NCBI GenBank assembly: GCA_024280775.1
Contig: JAJRPM010000013.1
Span: 1-64,000 of the forward strand
DNA: 64,000 nt
Source of the DNA: Candidatus Zixiibacteriota bacterium
Lineage (GTDB): Bacteria; Zixibacteria; MSB-5A5; GN15; JACZUZ01
Direction of reading: 5' to 3'
The notes below the pieces were generated by a model that had not been told where the DNA came from, did not search any database, and saw only the letters and a program-made list of their open reading frames with translations. Position 1 is the stretch's first letter, and the number at the start of each line of letters is the position of its first letter. This document shows, in pieces, positions 1,481 through 32,431 of this stretch. Position numbers and translations under genes: made by a program.

Positions 1481-2299
1481 TTACTCGTTATTTTTCTCTT
1501 GAACTTCTTTTGCTTCAAGCCAACGGCTTTCCAGCTCTTCTAGTGTGAACTCGTCCCAGGATTTCCCGGAATCAATCACACTCTCCTCTATAAAGGTAAA
1601 CCGTCGACGGAATTTGCGCAATGAACCTTTTAGCGCCTGCTCGGGATTCACACCCAATTTTCTCGAGAGCGAACAGACCACAAAAAGCAAATCTCCAATC
1701 TCCTCGGCCTGATTCTCAGCGTCGCCGGACTCAATCGCCGCTTTCAACTCGTCCAGCTCTTCATGTACCTTCTCTGTAACTGACTCAGCATCCGGCCAAT
1801 CAAACCCCACTCCGGCGGCCTTTTCTCCTAAACGAAATGCCTGTGTCAGTCCAGGCATGGACTTAGGAGCGCCGTCGAGCAGACGTTTTTGCTTTCCATC
1901 GGCCTGCTTCTCCGAGAGTTTTTGCTTTTCCCATTGCTGACGAACCTCGGCGGCTGTCCCTAGCTCTTTTACATCGCCAAAGACATGCGGATGACGACGA
2001 ATCAATTTTTCTACTACTGCAGTTATGGCCTCATTGATTTCAAAACTCTGTTTTTCCTCGGCGACAATGCCATGAAAAACAAACTGCACCAGCAAATCCC
2101 CCAGCTCCTCTTTGAGTTGCTCAGATTGTCCTTCCTCGATTGCATCAACTACCTCATAGCACTCTTCAATCAAGTACGGAATCAGTGACTCATGGGTTTG
2201 CTTGGCGTCCCAGGCGCAACCACCGGGAGCGCGCAAGATTTTCATAAGTTGCACTAAACGCTCGAACGGCGGCAGGGATTCATCGGGGGGAGTGAGCAT
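1481..2299 (-). CDS. mazG: Nucleoside triphosphate pyrophosphohydrolase MazG
   Basis: A 272-residue all-alpha NTP pyrophosphatase with two tandem MazG domains, the usual length of the E. coli type. The first domain has the metal-binding pattern EECYEVVDAIEE followed by KEELGDLLVQFVFH (about residues 45-80). The second has EELDELKAAIESGD and AEEIGDLLFVVCSL (about 180-215). It hydrolyses (d)NTPs to NMP and pyrophosphate and is thought to clear aberrant nucleotides or to modulate ppGpp. Cytoplasmic. It starts with ATG at 2299 and is divergent from valS across a 400-bp gap; the hypothetical gene follows 30 bp downstream. Confidence 0.95.
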   Translation of the reverse strand: MLTPPDESLPPFERLVQLMKILRAPGGCAWDAKQTHESLIPYLIEECYEVVDAIEEGQSEQLKEELGDLLVQFVFHGIVAEEKQSFEINEAITAVVEKLIRRHPHVFGDVKELGTAAEVRQQWEKQKLSEKQADGKQKRLLDGAPKSMPGLTQAFRLGEKAAGVGFDWPDAESVTEKVHEELDELKAAIESGDAENQAEEIGDLLFVVCSLSRKLGVNPEQALKGSLRKFRRRFTFIEESVIDSGKSWDEFTLEELESRWLEAKEVQEKNNE

Positions 2300-7187: not shown

Positions 7188-9392
7188 TTAGCTGTGGGCG
7201 CTATTATCTTCAATCGGAAAATACATTTTGAATGTGGCTCCTTCACCCTCTATGGAATCAACGGCAATTGTTCCATTGTGAGCCGACATAATGCGCTCTA
7301 CCACCGCCAACCCGAGACCGGTGCCAGTTTCCTTGGTTGTAAAATATCTATCGAACAATTTGGCGAGGTTTTCTTTCTTGATTCCAATACCAGTATCGCT
7401 AATCGATAGCTCTAAATAGTCACTGTTCTTAAAGTCCGGTCTGTCTATTTTGCCAGTGACATTCAGTTCTCCACCGTCCGGCATCGCATCAACAGCATTC
7501 ATCAACAGATTAAGCACAACCTCAAAGACTTGGTTCTTATTGACAATCACTTCCCAGTTCGTATCCGAGAAACTGAGGTTGGTAGTGATTTTGTGTTTCT
7601 CCAAGTCCGGAGCCACTAGCTCAAGCGCCCTCACAACAAGTCGACGCAAGTCGGTTTTCTCTGCTTCGTATTTGTGCGGTTTGGAAAAATCCACCAATTC
7701 ACTAACCAGCTCGTTAAGACGATGTGACTCCTCTTCAATCAGCTTGGTTAATTGCCGACTGTCCTCGCTGGCAGAATCGCCGATTTCCTTGCGCAGGAGA
7801 CCAATCGAGCCTTTGATAGCGGTTAGCGGCTTGCGCAAGTCATGCGAGATTTCAGAAATCATATTTCCCATGGTCAGCAAGCGTGAGGCATTGAGCATGG
7901 CCTTTTCTTTTTCATAAAGCGATGCTGATTGTGACACTACAATATCCGAGAGCGAGCGCTCATGCATATTGTACTTGTCCAAATAACTAGTGCCGAAGCA
8001 GAACAAATATGTAACCGCGCCATCACGAATTACCGGAGCTACCATGAAAGCGTCACTTCTTTCGCACTCCAGACCGATTCGAGGAAGACATTCCAAAATG
8101 TAGTCCTCCAGCTCTCGGCGGTCACTGCTCTCAATTCTCTCTAGCGACACTCCCCGTATCACTGGATCGCTTACTTTTTCATCTCCATAGACAATATTCC
8201 CGGAATCCGAGTATTCCATCTCCTTACCAAAGGCGCCAACCGCTTTCAGAGTCTGAGAGCGATTGTCGTTTTGTAGCCAGATACAATACTCCAGTGGGAT
8301 CAACTTACTAAGTGTTTCAAAAACCAGCTCCAGCATATCTTTCTGGGATGTAACAGATTTCATTTTGTCACTCAACTCATGTAACGCAATGAACTCCGAA
8401 AGCTGACGTGAGATTTCATCAAACTGGCGCGCGTCATTGATGACAACTGCCGCCTGCGATGCGAACATGATTGCCAGCCGCAAATCCGACTCGCTGAAAA
8501 CACCACCGTCTGTTTTTCGCGATAGATTGATTACACCTAGAACTTTGAACCCGACTTTTAGCGGCACACAGATCAATGACGCGTTACCATAACGCGCTCC
8601 GCTCTTGCGCTTGAATCGTGAATCTTCCTCAACATTCTCTATCAGAAGCGGATCACCGGATTGCGCCACAAAGCCGGAAATTGATTCTCCGACCGGTTGA
8701 CGCACATCGTGCACAATTTGCGCCTCTAGCCCCTGAGCCGCGGCGATTGTCAAGTATTTGCCAGACTGGTCTATCAGCATCACAGAACCAACAGTGGCAT
8801 GCGTAACTTTTGCAGATAATGACAGAATCTTCTCTAACAATGCGCGAGTGTCAGATGTTGAGGACAGGGATACACTAGCGTCATATAGCGCGTTGATTTC
8901 CTCAAACCTATTGGAGAGCTGACGGTTTGACTCTTCCAACGTTTCCAACAGATTGCGACGGCTCGACTCTAGATACTGCCTTTCCTGAGCTCGTTTCAAC
9001 GCCGATTGCAAATGATCAATACTCACCGGCTTAATCAGGTAGTCAGAGGCGCCCATATTGAGCGCTTCAATCGCTGTCTCTACTGTCGCATGACCAGTGA
9101 ACAGGATAACACAAATATTCTCATCCTCCTCACGCGCTTTGCGCAACACATCAAGACCATCGACACCAGGCATTTTCAAGTCGGTGAGAATCACATCCCA
9201 GCGGCCGTTCTTGATTTCACGACAAGCAATCGCTGAGTCCTGGTGCGCAACCACATCGTAGCCTTCGGCTGTTAATATCTGCTGAACAGATTCCAAAACC
9301 GAGCTATCATCATCAATCAGTAGCACACGTTCTAGAGTAGAGTCTTTGCGACCGTTATGTAATTTGTCTATTGGCATAGTTCTATTGAACAT
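7188..9392 (-). CDS. Soluble hybrid: receiver - GAF - histidine kinase
   Basis: About 734 residues with an unusual order. An N-terminal receiver domain (VLLIDDDSSVLESVQQIL; Asp in VILTDLKMPGVDG) is followed by a short coiled coil, a clear GAF domain (SVMLIDQSGKYLTIAAAQGL) and a second, less clear GAF-like stretch. Then come HisKA (phospho-His in MISEISHDLRKPLTA) and HATPase with GTGLGLAVVERIM. No membrane segment or signal peptide is seen, so it senses a cytoplasmic signal or receives phosphate from another kinase. The start is uncertain: TTG at 9446 or ATG at 9392; neither has a good ribosome site, and the receiver domain is intact either way. It precedes the NtrC-type regulator and follows folC by about 210 bp. 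Confidence 0.88.
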   Translation of the reverse strand: MFNRTMPIDKLHNGRKDSTLERVLLIDDDSSVLESVQQILTAEGYDVVAHQDSAIACREIKNGRWDVILTDLKMPGVDGLDVLRKAREEDENICVILFTGHATVETAIEALNMGASDYLIKPVSIDHLQSALKRAQERQYLESSRRNLLETLEESNRQLSNRFEEINALYDASVSLSSTSDTRALLEKILSLSAKVTHATVGSVMLIDQSGKYLTIAAAQGLEAQIVHDVRQPVGESISGFVAQSGDPLLIENVEEDSRFKRKSGARYGNASLICVPLKVGFKVLGVINLSRKTDGGVFSESDLRLAIMFASQAAVVINDARQFDEISRQLSEFIALHELSDKMKSVTSQKDMLELVFETLSKLIPLEYCIWLQNDNRSQTLKAVGAFGKEMEYSDSGNIVYGDEKVSDPVIRGVSLERIESSDRRELEDYILECLPRIGLECERSDAFMVAPVIRDGAVTYLFCFGTSYLDKYNMHERSLSDIVVSQSASLYEKEKAMLNASRLLTMGNMISEISHDLRKPLTAIKGSIGLLRKEIGDSASEDSRQLTKLIEEESHRLNELVSELVDFSKPHKYEAEKTDLRRLVVRALELVAPDLEKHKITTNLSFSDTNWEVIVNKNQVFEVVLNLLMNAVDAMPDGGELNVTGKIDRPDFKNSDYLELSISDTGIGIKKENLAKLFDRYFTTKETGTGLGLAVVERIMSAHNGTIAVDSIEGEGATFKMYFPIEDNSAHS

Positions 9393-9509
9393 AGTGTATT
9401 GGCGTAGTATTCTGTTTATGTGTGATGCTACGAGTTCTTCAGTCAATCTGTCAAGTTATCGGCTGAAATACCCACATCCACATAGCCGCATAGCCACAAT
9501 AGAGAACAA

Positions 9510-13047: not shown

Positions 13048-13520
13048 ACCGCAGACCTTCTTATACAAAATTCTCTATTGGAGCCCTCGGCGCGAATGTC
13101 AATCCACACAAACTGCCCCTGAATCAATTCTTCCTGTAGGAGCGGCTTGATATTCTCCGGCCACTCAATCAGGATAACCGCCTCGCGCTCCAGATAGTCT
13201 TCCCAACCGATTTGCAGTATCTCTTCGGGTTTGGCAATTCGATAGCAATCAAAATGTAGTACTTCCACATCGCCCTGATATTCATGGGCAATAGAAAAAG
13301 TGGGAGAACGCACATCATCAGGGTTTACCCCCAAACCGCTGGCAATGCCGCGGCAAAGCACAGTTTTGCCTGCGCCCAGGTCGCCTGCGATACACACAAT
13401 ATCACCGGCAGAAAGTCCTTGTGCAAGACTTGCGCCCAACGCAATAGTTTCTTCTGCCGAAGCGCTAGTAAATCTCTCGCTCTTGGTTTCTTTGGGAGCG
13501 CTCATCACTGAACCCGTCAC
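13044..13520 (-). CDS. tsaE: tRNA threonylcarbamoyladenosine biosynthesis ATPase TsaE
   Basis: A 158-residue P-loop ATPase of the t6A pathway. Walker A is GDLGAGKTVLCRGIA (about 45-59), followed by the family motif RSPTFSIAHEY and HFDCYRI. The GTG at 13520 shares one base with the porX stop (TAGTG); an internal ATG at 13505 is an alternative. From memory, porX is next to tsaE in many Bacteroidetes, so this pairing looks ancient rather than accidental. Confidence 0.94.
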   Translation of the reverse strand: MTGSVMSAPKETKSERFTSASAEETIALGASLAQGLSAGDIVCIAGDLGAGKTVLCRGIASGLGVNPDDVRSPTFSIAHEYQGDVEVLHFDCYRIAKPEEILQIGWEDYLEREAVILIEWPENIKPLLQEELIQGQFVWIDIRAEGSNREFCIRRSAV

Positions 13521-15136
13521 TACCGCGGTCTCAATACAGACAATGGAATAATCATCTCTTCGAGTGACAGCCCACCATGTTGGAATGAATTCTGGAATTG
13601 ACGCACATGCTCGTTGTACCTATTCGGGTATACAAAATAGTAATCCTCTTTGGCAATTATATAGGTTGTAGCCAAACGCGGCTTAGGCAAACGGTATTCT
13701 TCAGGTTTACGAATGATGATTCCCTGCTTGGGATCGCAATTGAGATTGACACCATGCTTATAGCGCAATGTTGTCGAAGTGTCTCGTTTACCATGCGCTA
13801 ACGCTCCTCGGTGGCATAGTTTTGAACCATGATCGGTGGTGATAATTACCGTATGACCATGCGAGGCAAAATCTTTCAGCGCTTTGAACAATGTGCTATG
13901 AGTAAACCAACTGAGTGTGATTGAACGAAAAGCGCTCTCATTGCCGGCGATTTCTTTGAGTATCATATTGTTGGAACGACCGTGCGACATAATATCCAGA
14001 AAGTTCACTACTATAGTAGAGAACTTGCGCGGATAGAAGTCTGAAATCTTGCGATACAGAGTATCCATTTCAGCGTTATTGAAAACTTTGGCGTACTTGA
14101 TTCCTGATTTCGGAACAGCGTCACGTTCCTTCAGCGCCGCGTTTATCATTTCTTCCTCAAAACGATTCAGCGAACCGGCGTCCTCAACGCTCCAAATATC
14201 AGGATAGCGCTCGTTGATTTCATCGGGAAACAACCCAGAAAACAACGCATTGCGCGCATAGGGAGTTGCAGTTGGCAATAGAGAGTAGAAATGTTTGCGC
14301 TCAATATCGAAATATTCAGAGAGCAGAGGCTCCAACGCCACCCACTGGTCGAGACGCATACAGTCGATAACCACAAACACCAGTTTCTCCGAGTTCGTTA
14401 GCTCGGGCATCACTGTGTGATCAATAACATCCGGCGGCAACAAAGGACGAGTCCCCTCCTGATAGGGAGTTTTCATCCAATCGACATAGTTCTTCTCTAC
14501 ATACTTGGTAAATTCAATGTTCCACTCGGTATGCGTTCCGGCATGTGTGTGCCATAGTCCTGTATCCGGGAATTCGGAAAGCTCGATATCCCATTCGGAG
14601 AGTATCGAAGCCGCGTCAAACCAATCCTCAGGTGTAACCGGGCCATATAATTTTTGGTTGAACCGATTGATATCGGCGATATAACGCTTTCCTAGCGCGT
14701 CAGAGCGTATCTTGCGTGAATCCAAAATCCGTTTGATAGCCATCAGCGCCTGTGAAGGATTGAGGGGCTTGGTTAAGTAGTCATCAATCTTTTGCCCGAT
14801 AGCCTCTTCCATCAAAGACTCTTCCTCGGATTTTGTCACCATGATAACCGGAAGATGCGGACTAATTACCTTGAGCTCTTCAAGAGTGGTCAGCCCATCC
14901 ATCCCGGGCATCATCTCATCAAGGAGCGCTAATTCAAAACGCTCACTACGCACCAATTTGATCGCCTCTTCGCCCGAAGAACAACATGTGACGGAATAGC
15001 CCTTGCCTTCAAGAAATAGAATATGCGGTTTGAGTGTGACAATTTCATCGTCAATCCACAGAAGTTTCTTGGGCGAAGCCGCCTTTTCTGTTTTGGGATT
15101 GGGCGCTTGTTTGGATTTATCTTTAGGTGCGTTCAT
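13520..15136 (-). CDS. porX: PorX-type response regulator with PglZ phosphatase domain (T9SS regulator)
   Basis: 538 residues: a receiver domain (about 23-140, phosphoacceptor Asp73 in LLDEMMPGMDG), a helical linker, then an alkaline-phosphatase-superfamily PglZ domain. In the latter, KLVFVVIDCMRLDQW supplies a metal-binding Asp (Asp258), LLPTATPYARNALFSG the likely Thr nucleophile (289 or 291), and TTDHGS further metal ligands. This matches PorX of Porphyromonas gingivalis, which with PorY controls type IX secretion and hydrolyses oligonucleotide or nucleotide substrates. The gene is between the PorY-like kinase (42 bp upstream) and tsaE (1-bp overlap). Which promoters or sigma factor it acts through cannot be seen here. 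Confidence 0.93.
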   Translation of the reverse strand: MNAPKDKSKQAPNPKTEKAASPKKLLWIDDEIVTLKPHILFLEGKGYSVTCCSSGEEAIKLVRSERFELALLDEMMPGMDGLTTLEELKVISPHLPVIMVTKSEEESLMEEAIGQKIDDYLTKPLNPSQALMAIKRILDSRKIRSDALGKRYIADINRFNQKLYGPVTPEDWFDAASILSEWDIELSEFPDTGLWHTHAGTHTEWNIEFTKYVEKNYVDWMKTPYQEGTRPLLPPDVIDHTVMPELTNSEKLVFVVIDCMRLDQWVALEPLLSEYFDIERKHFYSLLPTATPYARNALFSGLFPDEINERYPDIWSVEDAGSLNRFEEEMINAALKERDAVPKSGIKYAKVFNNAEMDTLYRKISDFYPRKFSTIVVNFLDIMSHGRSNNMILKEIAGNESAFRSITLSWFTHSTLFKALKDFASHGHTVIITTDHGSKLCHRGALAHGKRDTSTTLRYKHGVNLNCDPKQGIIIRKPEEYRLPKPRLATTYIIAKEDYYFVYPNRYNEHVRQFQNSFQHGGLSLEEMIIPLSVLRPR

Positions 15137-17814: not shown

Positions 17815-18211
17815 AATAATTCTCGCTAAGTTACCAATTGACGGGTCTTGTTTTCTGTTCAACTATTCGGGGTTCCTGCCCCATAACAACTCGGAAAATC
17901 GCATAAGCGGACGTCGAAATCAATAGACTTTAAGAAACGCTTACATCCGCACGCCTCAGCTGACATCCAGCCTATCTTATAGTAACATTTTCGCCCCTAT
18001 CTTCCTAACAAACACAAATGGGAAACCGCTATTCGGTCAAAGAGGGAATCTCTAGAGTAGACTTGGAGCGCTTCATCAGAAATAGTAAGTGACAATATAT
18101 CCCCGCGGCAGGGGCCGCACAGATGTTAATCTGCTACGACACAATCACTTATGCCTGAATTGCCACAAGGCCCAAAACTTGAGACCTAAGCCACAATTGC
18201 TGTTTTAGGAC
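17815..18211. other. Divergent serS/rpmB intergenic region
   Basis: No gene, tRNA or repeat family recognised. On the minus strand a TATAAG box near 17976-17981 could belong to a serS promoter, but no acceptable -35 is present at 16-18 bp. The rpmB promoter lies just beyond, at 18212-18239. Confidence 0.4.
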
Positions 18212-18239
18212 TTGCCTGACTTGGAAAAAGCGTTATATT
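18212..18239 (+). promoter_or_regulatory. Candidate promoter of rpmB
   Basis: TTGCCT (18212-18217) and TATATT (18234-18239) are spaced by 16 bp on the plus strand. The predicted transcript start near 18246 would give a leader of about 110 nt before rpmB. Confidence 0.5.
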
Positions 18240-18247
18240 CGTTGGCT

Positions 18248-18335
18248 CACATCGTTTTGGCGATGTGGCGTCAAAAGATATAGGAAGTTAGCAGAGAATA
18301 AATTCTGTAGAAGATTTAGTGCGAGAAAATCTCGC
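18248..18335 (+). promoter_or_regulatory. rpmB leader with two hairpins
   Basis: CACATCG-TTTTGG-CGATGTG (18248-18267, 7 bp) lies at the predicted 5' end, and GCGAGA-AAA-TCTCGC (18321-18335, 6 bp) lies just before the ribosome site AGGA at 18341-18344. Ribosomal-protein leaders often bind their own product, so autoregulation by L28 is possible. No known L28 leader motif was recognised. Confidence 0.35.
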
Positions 18336-18354
18336 TAAGTAGGACGACTCTATC

Positions 18355-18576
18355 ATGTCAAAGATATGCGAAGTATGCGGCAAGAAGCCATCATTCGGTC
18401 ATAACGTTTCCCATGCCCACAACATCACCAATCGCCGCTGGAATCCAAATTTGCAGTCGGTGCGCGCGTTAGTGGATGGCAAACCGAAGCGCATGAAGGT
18501 TTGCACCTCCTGCCTGAAAGCCGGCAAAGTTATCAAGCGGGCTTCGGTTAAGAAACCAAGACCGGCCACTGCCTAG
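18355..18576 (+). CDS. rpmB: 50S ribosomal protein bL28
   Basis: 73 residues, the normal size for bL28 of the large ribosomal subunit. This is the zinc-binding (C+) form: Cys5/Cys8 in CEVCGKK and Cys50/Cys53 in CTSC. The family block [19 protein letters not shown] is intact and the tail is basic. ATG start with AGGA 10 nt upstream. It is a single-gene unit with its own promoter and a strong terminator. Confidence 0.97.
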
Positions 18577-18613
18577 CAGGGCGCCTAACAAGACAGTCCT
18601 GATTATTTCTATC

Positions 18614-18641
18614 AAAGCGCCTGCGTTTTCGCAGGCGCTTT
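18614..18641. terminator. Bidirectional intrinsic terminator between rpmB and the flagellin gene
   Basis: AAAGCGCCTGCG (18614-18625), a TTTT loop, and CGCAGGCGCTTT (18630-18641) form a perfect 12-bp stem. It ends in A/T runs and serves rpmB on the plus strand and the flagellin-like gene on the minus strand. Confidence 0.9.
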
Positions 18642-18672
18642 CTTTGTGCTTAAAAGCTTACGGCTTTGAACT

Positions 18673-19404
18673 CTATGGTTTAGATTGTAACAAGGCGAAC
18701 ACCTGTTCGCGAGCCAGATTAGAATGCGCCTCAAGAGCCGCATCGATCTTAATCTGACGAATCTCTTTCATAAACTCCATCAGCGCCGCCATGAAATCCC
18801 CGAGCGAAGGCCCCTGGGACGCCTGAAGATTTTGCACTGCAACTTCCATTGAACTCTTCGCAGCACTGAGATCATTCTTGACCGAAGAGCCAAGCCGAAC
18901 CCTCACTGAATCAATTTTGGCGGCAGCGCTATCTACTAACTCAATTGCATCTTGAGCTCCTGTTGCCGATGTAAAATCGATAACCGCTAGCTGAGGAATA
19001 TTTGCCAGGGTCCCCGGGCTTCCATCCAGTAACTGACCTCCGTTGAATCGCGCTGACGAGATAGTGTCATTGTAAGACTGACGCAACCTCTGAGCCTCGT
19101 CGTTGAGAGCCGCCTGACTAGCGGTGTCCAGTGTCGCAGTATTCGATGCGGCAATTGCATTGACACGAATGTCAGTTAAAATTGAACGCGCCTGCCCGGC
19201 ATAGGAATCAGCGGTTTCATATCTTGCAATTGTCTGAGTCGTATTATCAATACGTTGATTCAACGAAGCGATTTGCGCCTTCATTTGTTCAGAAATCACC
19301 AAACCAGCCGGATCATCAGCCGCCAAAGGAGAGTTTGTCGAATTCGTCAATTTGTTCATCGCTTTTGAAAGGCGGTCGTATGATGACAGAATGCTATAAC
19401 TCAT
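18673..19404 (-). CDS. Minimal flagellin-like protein
   Basis: 243 residues with the flagellin N-terminal helical (D0/D1) signature: SPLAADDPAGLVISEQMKAQ near residues 25-45, then TADSYAGQARSILTDIRVNA and ARFNGGQLLDGS. A short C-terminal half (AAAKIDSVRVRLGSSVKNDL and a final helix ending LAREQVFALLQSK) matches flagellin D1/D0 in compressed form. The surface-exposed D2/D3 region is missing. The open frame extends 26 codons further, but ATG 19404 has GAGGAG 4-5 nt before it and is the clear start. No hook, export or FliD-type gene is nearby. It may be a flagellar filament protein encoded away from its cluster, or a flagellin homologue with another role. Confidence 0.8.
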   Translation of the reverse strand: MSYSILSSYDRLSKAMNKLTNSTNSPLAADDPAGLVISEQMKAQIASLNQRIDNTTQTIARYETADSYAGQARSILTDIRVNAIAASNTATLDTASQAALNDEAQRLRQSYNDTISSARFNGGQLLDGSPGTLANIPQLAVIDFTSATGAQDAIELVDSAAAKIDSVRVRLGSSVKNDLSAAKSSMEVAVQNLQASQGPSLGDFMAALMEFMKEIRQIKIDAALEAHSNLAREQVFALLQSKP

Positions 19405-19721
19405 AGGACTCCTCGCAGTATTGATAAAGAAGAAACTATTCATCGTCACTACCTCTGCTAAAACACATTGCAAACTCATCAATGAGGAATTCTCAGAACC
19501 CTTTCCCGAAAACTCGTCGCAAATACCGCAACGTCAGCAAACCTCCAAGCCAATAGGCATTTGAGGAAACGCAAGAATGCCGCCGGATTCTACTGCATTT
19601 ACAAGATCACTAATCGATAATTGTTCAATGATTTAGAGAATAAGTAGAGAAGCCGGTCCGACGATTCTATTGGAAGTTCCCCATACTGAATTGAATCTAC
19701 CCGACATATTTGGCGTTACAC
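19405..19721. other. Intergenic region upstream of the flagellin-like gene
   Basis: No gene or repeat recognised. No sigma-28 (TAAA-N15-GCCGATAA) or sigma-54 flagellar promoter was seen on the minus strand, which is of note for a flagellin. Confidence 0.35.
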
Positions 19722-19758
19722 AAAAAAAGGCCGCCGGCAGACAACATTACCGGCGGCC
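19722..19758 (-). terminator. Intrinsic terminator of the dcw cluster
   Basis: On the minus strand GGCCGCCGG (19750-19758) pairs with the complementary arm at 19729-19737 (9 bp, 12-nt loop), followed by a run of seven T (19722-19728). It lies 130 bp after ftsZ and marks the end of the division cluster. Confidence 0.88.
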
Positions 19759-19885
19759 ACTATTTCATACTACTTGATACTATATAATAGGGTAAAACTA
19801 ATTGTTTAGAATAATGGAACCGTGTGTTTGGCTCCTCCTTGGAAGCCGCTCCCACGTTATTCTATATGTGTGTTCAGTTTTTTTC

Positions 19886-21076
19886 TTAGTCTTCCATCCT
19901 CCTCATATACGCCGGTATGGTGCGGTTATCTTCTTCAAAAGAAGGGAGCCGTCCACGCCCACTGGTTACATTTACTGCGTCCCGTTCTACTACTTTCTGC
20001 GGAACCGCTTCGGAAAACAATGACATTGACTTACCTGATGCTGACTTTCCAGAATTGGCGCCGACATTCGACATAAACATTTCTTCAACTACTGCATTCT
20101 CACCTGTATTAAATCCGGTAGCAATAACCGTCACATGCATTTCATCACTAATCTCAGGATTGATGACCGCGCCAAAAATGATGTTAGCCTCAGCGCCTGC
20201 GGCGTCATAAATCACCGAAGTAGCCGCATTGACATCAAACAATGTCATATCCGCGCCACCGGTGATATTGATTAGCACACCCTTAGCGCCTTCAATTGAC
20301 ACTTCCTCAAGCAAAGGTGAAGAAATCGCAAGTTTCGCGGCGGTAGTGGCCTTGTCACTACCAAGTCCCACACCGGTTCCCATCAGCGCATCGCCCATTT
20401 CCTGCATAACAGTCTTTACATCTGCAAAGTCACAGTTAATCAAACCCGGAATTGTAATCAGGTCTGAAATGCCTTTGGTAGCCTGATGCAACACATCATC
20501 AGCAAAGCGGAATGCGTCAGTCAAAGTTGTGGTCTGATCCACAATACCCAGCAAACGCTCATTCGGGATAGTGATTAGTGTATCAACTTTTTGCTTAAGC
20601 TCTTCGATTCCTTCATCGGCGCGAGTGATTCTCTTTTTGCCTTCGAAACGGAAAGGACGTGTCACAATCGCCACAGACAGGGCGCCGATTTCACGAGCGA
20701 TTTCTGCAATCACTGGAGCGCCACCGGTTCCGGTTCCACCCCCCATACCGGCGGTAATGAATACCATATCAGAGCCTTCGAGGGCCTCAATAATTGTGTC
20801 CCGGTCTTCTTCAGTTGCGCGACGCCCCACATCCGGATTTGCTCCGGCGCCCAGGCCTTTAGTGAGTTTTTCACCGACACGGATTTTCGAGTCAGCCAAA
20901 TTGCTCTTGAGAACCTGAGCGTCTGTGTTGATGGCGATAAACTCCACGCCGCTTAGCTTCTCCTCGATCATTCGGTTTAGCGCATTACCACCTGCGCCAC
21001 CGCAACCAACCACACGGATTTTCGCATAGTTGTTAAAAGATTCGTCGATGTTGATGCTCAAATCCTTTTCAGACAT
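19886..21076 (-). CDS. ftsZ: Cell division GTPase FtsZ
   Basis: A 396-residue tubulin homologue that polymerises into the Z-ring. The GTP-binding signature GGGTGTGGAPVIAEIA (about 105-120), the N-terminal loop VVGCGGAGGNALNRM and the synergy-loop region (NCDFADVKTVM) are intact. A variable linker leads to a conserved tail, RTIPAYMRR, the part that binds FtsA. An upstream GTG (21103) is in frame, but ATG 21076 has GAGGAG 6 nt before it and is preferred. It is the last gene of the dcw cluster. Confidence 0.97.
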   Translation of the reverse strand: MSEKDLSINIDESFNNYAKIRVVGCGGAGGNALNRMIEEKLSGVEFIAINTDAQVLKSNLADSKIRVGEKLTKGLGAGANPDVGRRATEEDRDTIIEALEGSDMVFITAGMGGGTGTGGAPVIAEIAREIGALSVAIVTRPFRFEGKKRITRADEGIEELKQKVDTLITIPNERLLGIVDQTTTLTDAFRFADDVLHQATKGISDLITIPGLINCDFADVKTVMQEMGDALMGTGVGLGSDKATTAAKLAISSPLLEEVSIEGAKGVLINITGGADMTLFDVNAATSVIYDAAGAEANIIFGAVINPEISDEMHVTVIATGFNTGENAVVEEMFMSNVGANSGKSASGKSMSLFSEAVPQKVVERDAVNVTSGRGRLPSFEEDNRTIPAYMRRMED

Positions 21077-28345: not shown

Positions 28346-29431
28346 TCAACGCACTTTCAAAGTTGAAAGGGCGAGCATTGCGAACAACGCACCAAGTATC
28401 CAAAAGCGAACTACTACTTTTTGCTCAGGCCAACCGAGTAGTTCAAAATGGTGATGCAATGGCGCCATCTTAAAGATTCTCTTGCCACGCAACTTGAACG
28501 AACCGACTTGCAGAATCACCGAAAGCGCCTCAGCGACAAAAACACCGCCTAGGATAATCAGCAATATTTCCTGCTTCAAAAGTATTGCCAAAACTCCCAA
28601 CGCTCCGCCTAGTGTCAGCGCGCCCGTGTCACCCATAAATACTTCCGCCGGATTTGAATTGAACCAAAGAAATCCCAGCGCCGCTCCAACGGCCGCGCCA
28701 CAATAGACCGTCACCTCTCCCGCCCCGGGCAAAAATTCCATTTGCAAATACTGCGAATAGTCAAAGCGCCCTGAGATATACGCCAGCGCAGCAAAAGCCA
28801 GGAAACATATCCCACACAGACCAATCGCTAGTCCGTCCAAACCGTCGGTAAGGTTTACCGCATTCGAAGTTCCGGTTATCACTAGAATAATCAGCGGGAT
28901 ATAGAACACTCCCCAATCGATCAAGTGATCTTTGAGAAACGGAGCCACAGAGAATCCATAGCGTGATTCAGACGGAGCAACATTTAGAATTATCATACCT
29001 ACCAGCAAGCCGAGTGAAATCTGTCCAACTAGCTTCAGCCTTCCAACTAATCCGGCTTTTCTTTTCTTTACAATTTTCAAGTAGTCATCAATGAACCCCA
29101 ATACACCTAACCAAATCGTCACTATCAAGGACGTCAGTACAAAGAAGTTGCTAAGATCCGCCCATAGGATAGTCGGAACAAGAATCCCCATGATGATTAT
29201 CAGACCGCCCATTGACGGTGTACCTGCTTTGGCCTGATGTGACTGAGGGCCTTCTTCTCTGATTGTTTCCTTAATTTGGAATTTCTTCAGCAGATTCACA
29301 AAGAAACCACCGAATATCAAACATATAATTAGCGCTGTCACCATTGCCCCGGCCGTTCGGAATGTTATATACCGAAACAAATTGAACACCGTAAATTGGT
29401 CGGCTAATGGATAGAGATATTCGTAGAACAT
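28346..29431 (-). CDS. mraY: Phospho-MurNAc-pentapeptide transferase MraY
   Basis: A polytopic membrane enzyme that makes lipid I from UDP-MurNAc-pentapeptide and undecaprenyl phosphate. Signature segments: KAGTPSMGGLIIIMGIL, GFIDDYLKIVKKRKAG (the catalytic Asp pair), NAVNLTDGLDGLAIG and FMGDTGALTLGG, ending with PLHHHFELLGWPE. About ten transmembrane helices. ATG 29431 gives MFYEYLYPL, the usual MraY opening; a GTG lies two codons upstream. Confidence 0.97.
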   Translation of the reverse strand: MFYEYLYPLADQFTVFNLFRYITFRTAGAMVTALIICLIFGGFFVNLLKKFQIKETIREEGPQSHQAKAGTPSMGGLIIIMGILVPTILWADLSNFFVLTSLIVTIWLGVLGFIDDYLKIVKKRKAGLVGRLKLVGQISLGLLVGMIILNVAPSESRYGFSVAPFLKDHLIDWGVFYIPLIILVITGTSNAVNLTDGLDGLAIGLCGICFLAFAALAYISGRFDYSQYLQMEFLPGAGEVTVYCGAAVGAALGFLWFNSNPAEVFMGDTGALTLGGALGVLAILLKQEILLIILGGVFVAEALSVILQVGSFKLRGKRIFKMAPLHHHFELLGWPEQKVVVRFWILGALFAMLALSTLKVR

Positions 29432-29461
29432 TGTCACATCAAGAAGCTGCTTACAGCACAG

Positions 29462-29929
29462 CTACACCTGACTCCTCGCTTTCAGCGCCAACATCGCACG
29501 CTCCAATGCAATTCCTCTTGAAGCCTTCAAATACACAACATCACCGACAGTAGCTATTTCAGCGAGCAAATCTCCAGCATCCAACGCATTATCGAGAGAG
29601 TGAATCTCAACTCCTGATTCGCTATCGCTTTCTTTCAGCGCTTCTGCGCTTAACCTCGCGCGAGCGCCAACTGTGATAATGACATCTATCACGCCGTGAG
29701 AACTCATGAGCTCTGCTAGATAATTGCCAACTGCGATATGCTCTCGTGATTCAATTGCTCCCAGCTCAAGCATATCACCAATCACGCATATCTTTTTAGC
29801 ATCTGATGTTTGTGGCTTCATAGCGGCGAATGTCTTCAGTCCTGCGCGCATTGAGGATGGATTCGCATTGTAGCAATCAATTATGACATCAATTCCCGCG
29901 ATGCTCTTTCTCTCCCCGCGTTGCGCCAT
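29462..29929 (-). CDS. murF: MurF, C-terminal domain (separated by an in-frame TAG)
   Basis: 155 residues forming the third (ligase) domain of UDP-MurNAc-tripeptide--D-Ala-D-Ala ligase. The family motifs are VIIDCYNANPSSMRAGL and VIGDMLELGAIESREHI. It is in the same reading frame as the upstream murF part, separated only by TAG plus six sense codons before this ATG. The ATG has AGAGG only 2 nt upstream, a poor spacing, so independent translation would be inefficient unless ribosomes reinitiate. The residues it needs look intact. It may be a separately made domain, a casualty of a nonsense mutation, or an artefact of one wrong base in the assembly. Confidence 0.85.
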   Translation of the reverse strand: MAQRGERKSIAGIDVIIDCYNANPSSMRAGLKTFAAMKPQTSDAKKICVIGDMLELGAIESREHIAVGNYLAELMSSHGVIDVIITVGARARLSAEALKESDSESGVEIHSLDNALDAGDLLAEIATVGDVVYLKASRGIALERAMLALKARSQV

Positions 29930-29947
29930 TGCCTCTGAGACAAAACT

Positions 29948-29950
29948 CTA
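29948..29950 (-). other. In-frame TAG codon interrupting murF
   Basis: Reading on the minus strand gives ...EMKSL-TAG-SFVSEAMAQRG..., with sense codons in one frame on both sides. TAG is an ordinary stop elsewhere here (valS, porX, murG, rsmA), so a genome-wide reassignment is unlikely. Confidence 0.9.
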
Positions 29951-30901
29951 CAACGACTTCATCTCTATCTTGGCCCCCAGCGCTCGACAAATTGTAATTG
30001 CGCAGAGAGCATTGCCAACTTGCTCTTCACCAAAAGCCGGTAGTGAGATTCGCTGTCCCTCAAATGTAAAGGACACATGACCTGTCGCAGAATCTATTGT
30101 GACATCACTGGCAACAGTATCATATTTGACTTGCCTGGCGCCACCGGAATCAGACACTCCAAAGGTCAGAACATTGTCGCAAATAGCTTTCGCTCCTGAT
30201 ACAAGTTCAGCGTCAGCGCCGTTGACAACTGCACCCCCTAGCGATTGCAACGACTCAAGCATAATCAGCTTTTCGCTACGAACACCTGCCAGTGAACCCA
30301 GCGACTCCAAATGAGATTCACTGACATTTGTAATAGCCCCCACAAGCGGCCTTAGTATCGGAGCAAGACGTTTCATTTCTCCTTGAGTGGAAATTCCCAA
30401 TTCGAAGATCCCGTATTGAGCCTGCTTATCCATGCGCAAAAGAGAAAGTGGCAACCCGAACAAATTATTCAAGTTACCGGCGGACGCATGCACATTCACA
30501 CCAGAGCTATCTAGCAAGTGACGTGTCATCTCTTTCACTGCAGTCTTGCCCGCCGAGCCTGTGACACCTGCGGTCTTGTCTGTGAGTTTCTCGCGATGCG
30601 CAATTGCGAGTTCAATTAGCGCCTGATGTGTATCCTCAACTACGACAGTCGGAAATGACTCCGGTACATTTAGAGCGCCACGTCGTTCCACCAGCGCTCC
30701 CGTAGCTCCTGCCGCTTGTGCGTTCTCCACAAAGAGATGTCCGTCATGATTCTCACCGCGAATAGCAACATACAGCTCGCCAGGGCTAAGCGTACGAGTG
30801 TCAATAGAAACACCACGCACAACACTAGCGCCTGCGCTATCTATTGTAAGCGTTCCATGTGTCACTTCTGTCACTTGCTCTAGGCTCAATTCCATCACCA
30901 C
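29948..30901 (-). CDS. murF: MurF, N-terminal and ATPase domains (truncated by TAG)
   Basis: 317 residues carrying the UDP-MurNAc-tripeptide-binding domain (SIDTRTLSPGELYVAIRG near 32-49) and the central ATPase domain (P-loop GVTGSAGKTAVKEM at 112-125; HASAGNLNNLFGLPLSLL; ITNVSESHLESLGS). The product stops at EMKSL, where the family continues into domain 3. Normal MurF proteins have about 450 residues; the two parts plus the interrupted codons sum to 479. The start is GTG at 30901 or ATG at 30895. Without the C-terminal domain this part should not be active alone, since the D-Ala-D-Ala site lies between domains. The gene is normally essential in walled bacteria. Confidence 0.92.
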   Translation of the reverse strand: MVMELSLEQVTEVTHGTLTIDSAGASVVRGVSIDTRTLSPGELYVAIRGENHDGHLFVENAQAAGATGALVERRGALNVPESFPTVVVEDTHQALIELAIAHREKLTDKTAGVTGSAGKTAVKEMTRHLLDSSGVNVHASAGNLNNLFGLPLSLLRMDKQAQYGIFELGISTQGEMKRLAPILRPLVGAITNVSESHLESLGSLAGVRSEKLIMLESLQSLGGAVVNGADAELVSGAKAICDNVLTFGVSDSGGARQVKYDTVASDVTIDSATGHVSFTFEGQRISLPAFGEEQVGNALCAITICRALGAKIEMKSL

Positions 30902-30940: not shown

Positions 30941-32431
30941 TTAACCGGCAACAGGTTCGTAACCAAGTTCGCGCAATGCTTTCTCTGCTTCATGTTGCTC
31001 ACTATATGATTTCTTTCCCGAAGCCGATATCTCATATTGCTCTGCGCCTTTGCCAAGCAATAGCACCGTGTCGCTCTTTTTAGCCCTGCTAATAGCTTCT
31101 GCTACTGCGGCACGACGTTCAATTAACACCGCATGCACACCCGTTACACCTTTGATAGTTTCATCAATAATCTTCTGCGGATCTTCACTGCGTGGATTAT
31201 CTGAAGTGACAATCACAACATCCGCTTTGCTGGCGGCCTCGCCCATTAGCGCGCGTTTGCCGTTGTCACGGTCTCCACCGCATCCGTAAAGCGCTATGAC
31301 TTTCCCCTCAGTGAACTGACGTGCGGCTTTTACGACGCGCGCTATCGCATCCGGCGTGTGCGCATAGTCAATTATCACCGCAAAAGGCTGACCGCAATCC
31401 ACTTTTTGAAAACGTCCGGGAACCGGCTGTGCTTTCTCTAGCGCGCGTACAGCAGTGTCAATATCCACTCCCGAAGCTAATCCTGCCGCTAAGGCTCCCA
31501 GTGTGTTCATTAGATTAAACTCACCGCAAAGCTGAGTCTTGACTGTCCGCGCTCCCATCGGAGTTACCACATTGAAAAATGTGCCGTCTGCCGAATAATC
31601 ACGTTCAGTTGTATACACATCAGCGCTACTATCTTGTAGTGAGTAGCTTAAGTAAGCTGAAGAAACTCTGCCGAACAATTCGCGAAACTCCGGCACATCT
31701 AAATTGATAACCGCATATTTCATGAGCCCATCAAGCTTGGCAAGCAGTTGAGCCTTTGCTTCGAAATAGGTCTCCATATCCTCATGAAAATCCAGATGAT
31801 CGCGAGTTAGATTTGTAAACAGTCCAACCCGGAATTCGACATTCTCAACACGTCCCAATTCCAAAGCATGCGAAGAGACTTCCATCACTACATTGTTACA
31901 ATGATTCGCTCGCATCAGATATAACAACCTCTGAATATCCAGCGACTCAGGAGTAGTGCGATCCGCTTCAAATTTTTCACCACAAGTGTCATATTCCAGT
32001 GAGCCTATCAGACCGACTCTCTTGTTTCGTCCTTCAAGGATCGCCTTGAGCAGGTAGGCGGAAGTTGTCTTTCCATTGGTGCCGGTGATAGCGGTTATTT
32101 TGAGCGCCTTCCCGGGGTATTCATAGAATTTCGCCGCCAAATCAGAGAGCGCCCGTCGGGAATTGCCAGTCTTCACCCACGTAACACTCAGGTTGTTTTC
32201 ATTGTCACGTTCAGATACAACCGCAAGCGCGCCACTCTTGACAGCATCCTCAGCAAAATCGAACCCGTCGACCACAAAACCGGGAACCGCCACAAAAACA
32301 GTTCCGGCCTTGACCTGCCGCGAATCATATTCCAACGCCTCAACAGTTCCATCAACTGAACCTGTCACTTGCAGAGAATCCTTCTCTGGAGAATCTATCG
32401 CGCTTATAAGTTCTTCTAGTCTTAGTGACAT
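30941..32431 (-). CDS. murE: UDP-MurNAc-L-Ala-D-Glu--meso-diaminopimelate ligase
   Basis: A 496-residue ligase adding the third stem residue. The ATP loop is AITGTNGKTTSAYLLKAIL; IDYAHTPDAIARVVKA opens domain 3. The substrate-selecting motif SDNPRSEDPQ is the DNPR form that binds meso-diaminopimelate rather than lysine, so this organism should make DAP-type peptidoglycan. ATG start at 32431. It is followed by murF after 39 bp. Confidence 0.97.
   Translation of the reverse strand: MSLRLEELISAIDSPEKDSLQVTGSVDGTVEALEYDSRQVKAGTVFVAVPGFVVDGFDFAEDAVKSGALAVVSERDNENNLSVTWVKTGNSRRALSDLAAKFYEYPGKALKITAITGTNGKTTSAYLLKAILEGRNKRVGLIGSLEYDTCGEKFEADRTTPESLDIQRLLYLMRANHCNNVVMEVSSHALELGRVENVEFRVGLFTNLTRDHLDFHEDMETYFEAKAQLLAKLDGLMKYAVINLDVPEFRELFGRVSSAYLSYSLQDSSADVYTTERDYSADGTFFNVVTPMGARTVKTQLCGEFNLMNTLGALAAGLASGVDIDTAVRALEKAQPVPGRFQKVDCGQPFAVIIDYAHTPDAIARVVKAARQFTEGKVIALYGCGGDRDNGKRALMGEAASKADVVIVTSDNPRSEDPQKIIDETIKGVTGVHAVLIERRAAVAEAISRAKKSDTVLLLGKGAEQYEISASGKKSYSEQHEAEKALRELGYEPVAG

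Follow-up and report, generated by a model that had tools for sequence, protein, structure and literature searches.

The only murF gene of a Candidatus Zixiibacteriota genome carries a single in-frame TAG in the linker between its predicted second and third domains. The stop is one base away from the codon found in the only other genome of the genus, the frame is otherwise open, constraint continues past the stop, and a suppressor tRNA was not found. A consensus error or a minor-strain variant, with no decoding system involved, is the most likely explanation, at a little short of an even chance, and we infer that under this explanation the stop would be missing from most living cells. Positions are those of the window, i.e. 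the whole stretch of 64,000 nucleotides of contig JAJRPM010000013.1 that was analysed.

The murF gene has murE and mraY as its neighbours and belongs to a cell-wall and division cluster of the ordinary kind, which is intact around it. As the preliminary description of this DNA had stated, a single TAG (29950-29948) is the sole interruption of the frame, which begins at GTG 30901 on the minus strand and is closed by its natural TAG at 29464-29462. The features concerned are the following:

29462..30901, minus strand: complete frame of murF down to its natural TAG terminator, with the internal TAG in it; 334 bits to TIGR01143 if read through; the genome's only copy
29948..29950, minus strand: the in-frame TAG, which is codon 318 if GTG 30901 is codon 1; the genome G001 of the same genus has GAG (Glu)
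29948..30901, minus strand: 5' ORF, MurF domains 1 and 2, 317 aa; PF01225 and PF08245
29462..29929, minus strand: 3' ORF of 155 aa from ATG 29929, encoding the C-terminal ligase domain of MurF; PF02875 over ORF residues 4-138
29927..29929, minus strand: candidate restart ATG, 18 bases past the TAG; opposite residue 311 of E. coli MurF in the alignment; TTA (Leu) in G001
29932..29935, minus strand: GAGG, weak Shine-Dalgarno-like match ending 2 bases before ATG 29929; -5.8 kcal/mol, equalled by 19% of internal ATGs in window genes
30941..32431, minus strand: murE, upstream neighbour, intact; 78% identical to the G001 copy
28346..29437, minus strand: mraY, downstream neighbour, intact; 87% identical to the G001 copy

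The MurF frame passes the TIGR01143 cut-off (334.4 bits vs 288.6) only when it is read through with the TAG counted as a residue, and the separate halves score 242.1 and 84.7 bits, both below the cut-off. Pfam domains are found in the read-through protein in the order Mur_ligase (PF01225, residues 28-101), Mur_ligase_M (PF08245, 113-304) and Mur_ligase_C (PF02875, 328-462), so that the TAG at residue 318 falls in the linker between the end of the middle envelope at 304 and the start of the C-terminal one at 328. In an alignment to E. coli MurF (1GG4), residue 318 lies near residue 304, and ATG 29929 (residue 325) corresponds to residue 311, which we take to be the start of E. coli domain 3. 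The stop had been described as splitting the gene exactly at a domain junction; its location in the linker stands, but it is the ATG and not the TAG that aligns with residue 311. Judged from sequence, the TAG appears to sit a few residues ahead of the domain 2/3 junction, with the possible restart ATG 29929 right on it. These boundaries are based on Pfam and on the alignment to the solved MurF, a two-sequence structure prediction being too poor (mean pLDDT 35). A second intact murF, named beforehand as an observation that would count against the importance of the break, was searched for in all 17 contigs of the genome (3.17 Mb, 97.5% complete) and none was found.

At the column of the TAG, which is itself variable, a sense codon is present in all 29 aligned relatives. 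G001 is the only same-genus genome, with a MurF 64% identical and GAG at this column, so a single G-to-T change would be enough to give TAG. The comparison of murF with its relatives, proposed earlier as a check, thus yielded sense codons throughout and fits a consensus error as well as a nonsense change of recent date. When GTDB genome contigs were scanned for MurF, the sole match was a distant Desulfofustis MurF. Amino acid difference to the outgroup is 62.2% after the stop for this murF and 61.9% for the intact G001 relative, compared with 53.9% and 54.2%, respectively, before the stop, and third-position/codon-position bias continues past the TAG as it does ahead of it. Since codon-position bias and outgroup distances are alike before and after the stop, purifying selection is indicated on both sides, which argues that the stop is recent, bypassed or not real. 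An old pseudogene is made unlikely by a post-stop sequence as constrained as the pre-stop sequence. More generally, it is very improbable that murF is a pseudogene and MurF dispensable or replaced: a stop within the frame would be expected of one, but there is no second murF, the cell-wall and division cluster around it is intact, and constraint is not relaxed.

All of the 43 tRNA genes detected in the genome have sense anticodons, none of them CUA or UUA, and relaxing the search to E = 10 gave one extra match only, sub-threshold at 15.4 bits. Because tRNA-Ile(GAU) and tRNA-Ala(UGC), whose usual place is in rRNA operons, are absent from this set, the assembly is not quite complete. Two tRNA-Arg (UCU) genes of equal score are found close to the ends of two contigs (contig 4 end, L045; contig 14 near 76345, L046), and probably reflect an assembly overlap joining contigs 4 and 14. 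The RF1 gene prfA is intact (C16:283556-284626). In 752 kb of this genome, TAG terminates 137 of 393 long ORFs (35%) with no sign of avoidance, in agreement with the earlier statement that TAG is a normal stop elsewhere in this DNA. Genome-wide UAG reassignment was rejected on account of this TAG usage and the intact RF1, and the suggestion of a suppressor tRNA with a CUA anticodon found no support among the 43 tRNAs, none of which reads a stop codon. Both in-frame stops in the sampled genes of this genome are TAG, as would be expected from a dedicated amber suppressor tRNA or from reassignment, but with sense-only tRNAs, RF1 in place and TAG common as a terminator this possibility is hardly credible; a suppressor gene would need to lie in the few percent of the genome missing from the assembly.

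The background of lone stops in the genus was assessed by comparing the same 752 kb with about 533 kb of G001, i.e. about 42,000 aligned codons each way. One further real in-frame TAG was identified in the sampled part of this genome and two TAAs in that of G001; other stops flagged in the comparison were judged to be in shadow frames or in ORF extensions upstream of starts. The second TAG (contig 7, L132:17755-18915, plus strand, TAG at 18778) is in the gene for a poly-gamma-glutamate system protein (TIGR04332), 44 codons from its end; G001 has Gln there, at 90% identity. The G001 TAAs (contig 13, 326340 and 332313, minus strand; L083 near 1340 and 7313; 81-82% identity) interrupt genes for a histidine kinase and for a response regulator with a PglZ domain, which are intact in the window (7188-9446 and 13520-15136). 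The gene at 13520-15136, on the minus strand, encodes a response regulator fused to a PglZ domain, the architecture of PorX, a regulator of type IX secretion. No convincing frameshift was found in about 42,000 aligned codons in either direction. Lone nonsense codons in this genus are thus not confined to murF, yet the assemblies do not look error-ridden. A codon-usage scan of contig 16 for interrupted genes was too insensitive, missing murF at its own thresholds, and the G001 comparison was used instead.

About 350 murF genes were surveyed, made up of those in the 121 of 133 genomes of the phylum with a murF match and of about 230 murF genes from outside it. G029, a genome of the same order (single contig, 2.6 Mb, 83% complete), has no murF match at all, which could be due to gene loss, divergence or incompleteness. 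Two stops flagged outside the phylum (TGA in G334 and TAA in G136) were rejected, both being natural gene ends. Within the phylum, an internal stop was found in two of the 121 genomes, namely this one (G000) and G130, which belongs to another family of the same class and carries a TAA that precedes this TAG by four residues in the alignment (contig 118, about 30824-30826; L087 bases 1825-1827, minus strand). Its sister genome G131, which aligns without gaps at 92% DNA identity over 12 kb, has GAG at the TAA of G130. The G130 MurF is 93% identical overall to the G131 protein, its C-terminal part is still constrained, and a GTG is found 8 codons past the TAA, in the same alignment column as ATG 29929 and without a good ribosome-binding match. 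Around the TAA, 5 of 12 bases are not those of G131. Only 0.3% of windows show differences at this density, which may reflect a local problem in the sequence or a relaxation of constraint. Among 23-24 genes in 37 kb of G130, murF alone has a genuine internal stop; we judged the other flagged stops to belong to shadow frames or to precede the likely starts. Elsewhere on contig 118 (about 18000-20000, L152), a large tandem-repeat protein gene is suggested by numerous overlapping, self-similar matches to G131, with identities of 64-68%.

The same stop in at least two genomes would exclude error; this codon is a stop in G000 only, and the TAA of G130 is independent. If each codon is weighted by the number of ways in which one step turns it into a stop, a stop would fall by chance within four residues with a probability of 4% in this gene and of 1.7% in that of G131. 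Noticed post hoc, the near-coincidence speaks modestly for an effect of position and favours a tolerated split over an error, and such closeness would be expected if stops were survivable in the linker alone.

In the explanation preferred here, GAG would have changed to TAG by an isolated, very recent one-base nonsense change in a sole and otherwise intact murF, outside any decoding system. The TAG would then be a consensus error, or would come from a strain variant that is minor, non-viable or transient, and the living population would keep the sense codon and make a normal full-length MurF. Because murF is present only once in this genome, its real loss would be expected to be lethal; in S. 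aureus, the gene was found to be essential by means of a conditional mutant, and its suboptimal expression slowed growth in proportion (PMC9603463). Sense codons in 29 of 29 aligned relatives, and single nonsense calls in less critical genes of the genus, argue for an error or minor variant. Against it are the lack of convincing frameshifts in the codons compared, the interdomain position of the stop, and the fact that the only other true internal stop among about 350 murF genes is four residues away, with random odds of about 2-4%. Alternatively, the stop could be real and MurF made in two pieces, with domains 1 and 2 ending at the TAG, translation restarting at ATG 29929, and a separately made domain 3 associating with the first half; a stop would be tolerated in this linker only, and hence also in a second lineage. 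This is possible but doubtful. It is consistent with a stop between the Pfam middle and C-terminal domains and an ATG 18 bases on, at the start of domain 3, as well as with the G130 case: an independent TAA four residues away where the sister has GAG, a GTG at the matching column ahead of a constrained C-terminal part, and no other genuine internal stop among the neighbouring genes. However, the restart ATG is not conserved in G001 (TTA, Leu), the GAGG is just 2 bases from it and unexceptional, the G130 GTG has no good ribosome-binding match, the stop columns are not identical, and the coincidence was spotted after the fact. The preliminary description had offered reinitiation at ATG 29929 as one option; it thus gains from the independent stop in G130 and loses from the non-conserved ATG and the unexceptional GAGG. 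No published split MurF was found in a literature search. That MurF works as two separately translated pieces, and that the class split it in the domain 2/3 linker at least twice, through nonsense mutations four residues apart and with reinitiation for domain 3, is slightly more doubtful.

It is unlikely, if not negligibly so, that the stop is real but leaky, with near-cognate tRNAs reading UAG at a low rate to give enough full-length MurF, in which case the change would be a down-regulating mutation that may revert soon. Constraint going on past the stop and the presence of near-cognate tRNAs (two tRNA-Gln, CUG and UUG, and one tRNA-Tyr, GUA) support this reading, as does published work (PMC7918605) in which in-frame stops were widespread and short-lived in conserved genes of bacteria that evolve under purifying selection. 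Nevertheless, efficient readthrough would be costly because TAG is a common terminator without avoidance, and the linker location would carry no meaning. The other lineage, moreover, has TAA, in general the least leaky stop. Altogether, a consensus or minor-strain error is somewhat likelier than a MurF split by reinitiation or a leaky readthrough.

Should living cells carry the stop, an essential enzyme and antibiotic target would survive a nonsense mutation, either because its halves assemble by themselves or because decoding is leaky, and annotation pipelines would be wrong to label this murF a pseudogene. As a consensus error, it would warn against taking lone stops in draft genomes for biology. 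Among known systems, the gene resembles MurF, the UDP-N-acetylmuramoyl-tripeptide--D-alanyl-D-alanine ligase (TIGR01143; E. coli 1GG4), in its three-domain order, in its score when read through and in the order murE-murF-mraY-murD, but differs in the internal TAG between domains 2 and 3 and in that neither half reaches the cut-off; its activity is a prediction. Isolated in-frame stops in conserved bacterial genes have been reported as widespread, under purifying selection and short-lived, the same stop being required in two species to exclude sequencing error (Belinky et al. 2021; PMC7918605). Like those stops, the one in this murF is a single nonsense codon in a frame open on both sides, with constraint kept and a sense codon in relatives. 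Unlike them, it lies in the domain linker of a single-copy, normally essential gene, another family has a stop at nearly the same place, and no two species share it. A recent, solitary stop in frame is thus of a known kind, and it is the normally essential gene together with the near-coincident second case that is out of the ordinary.
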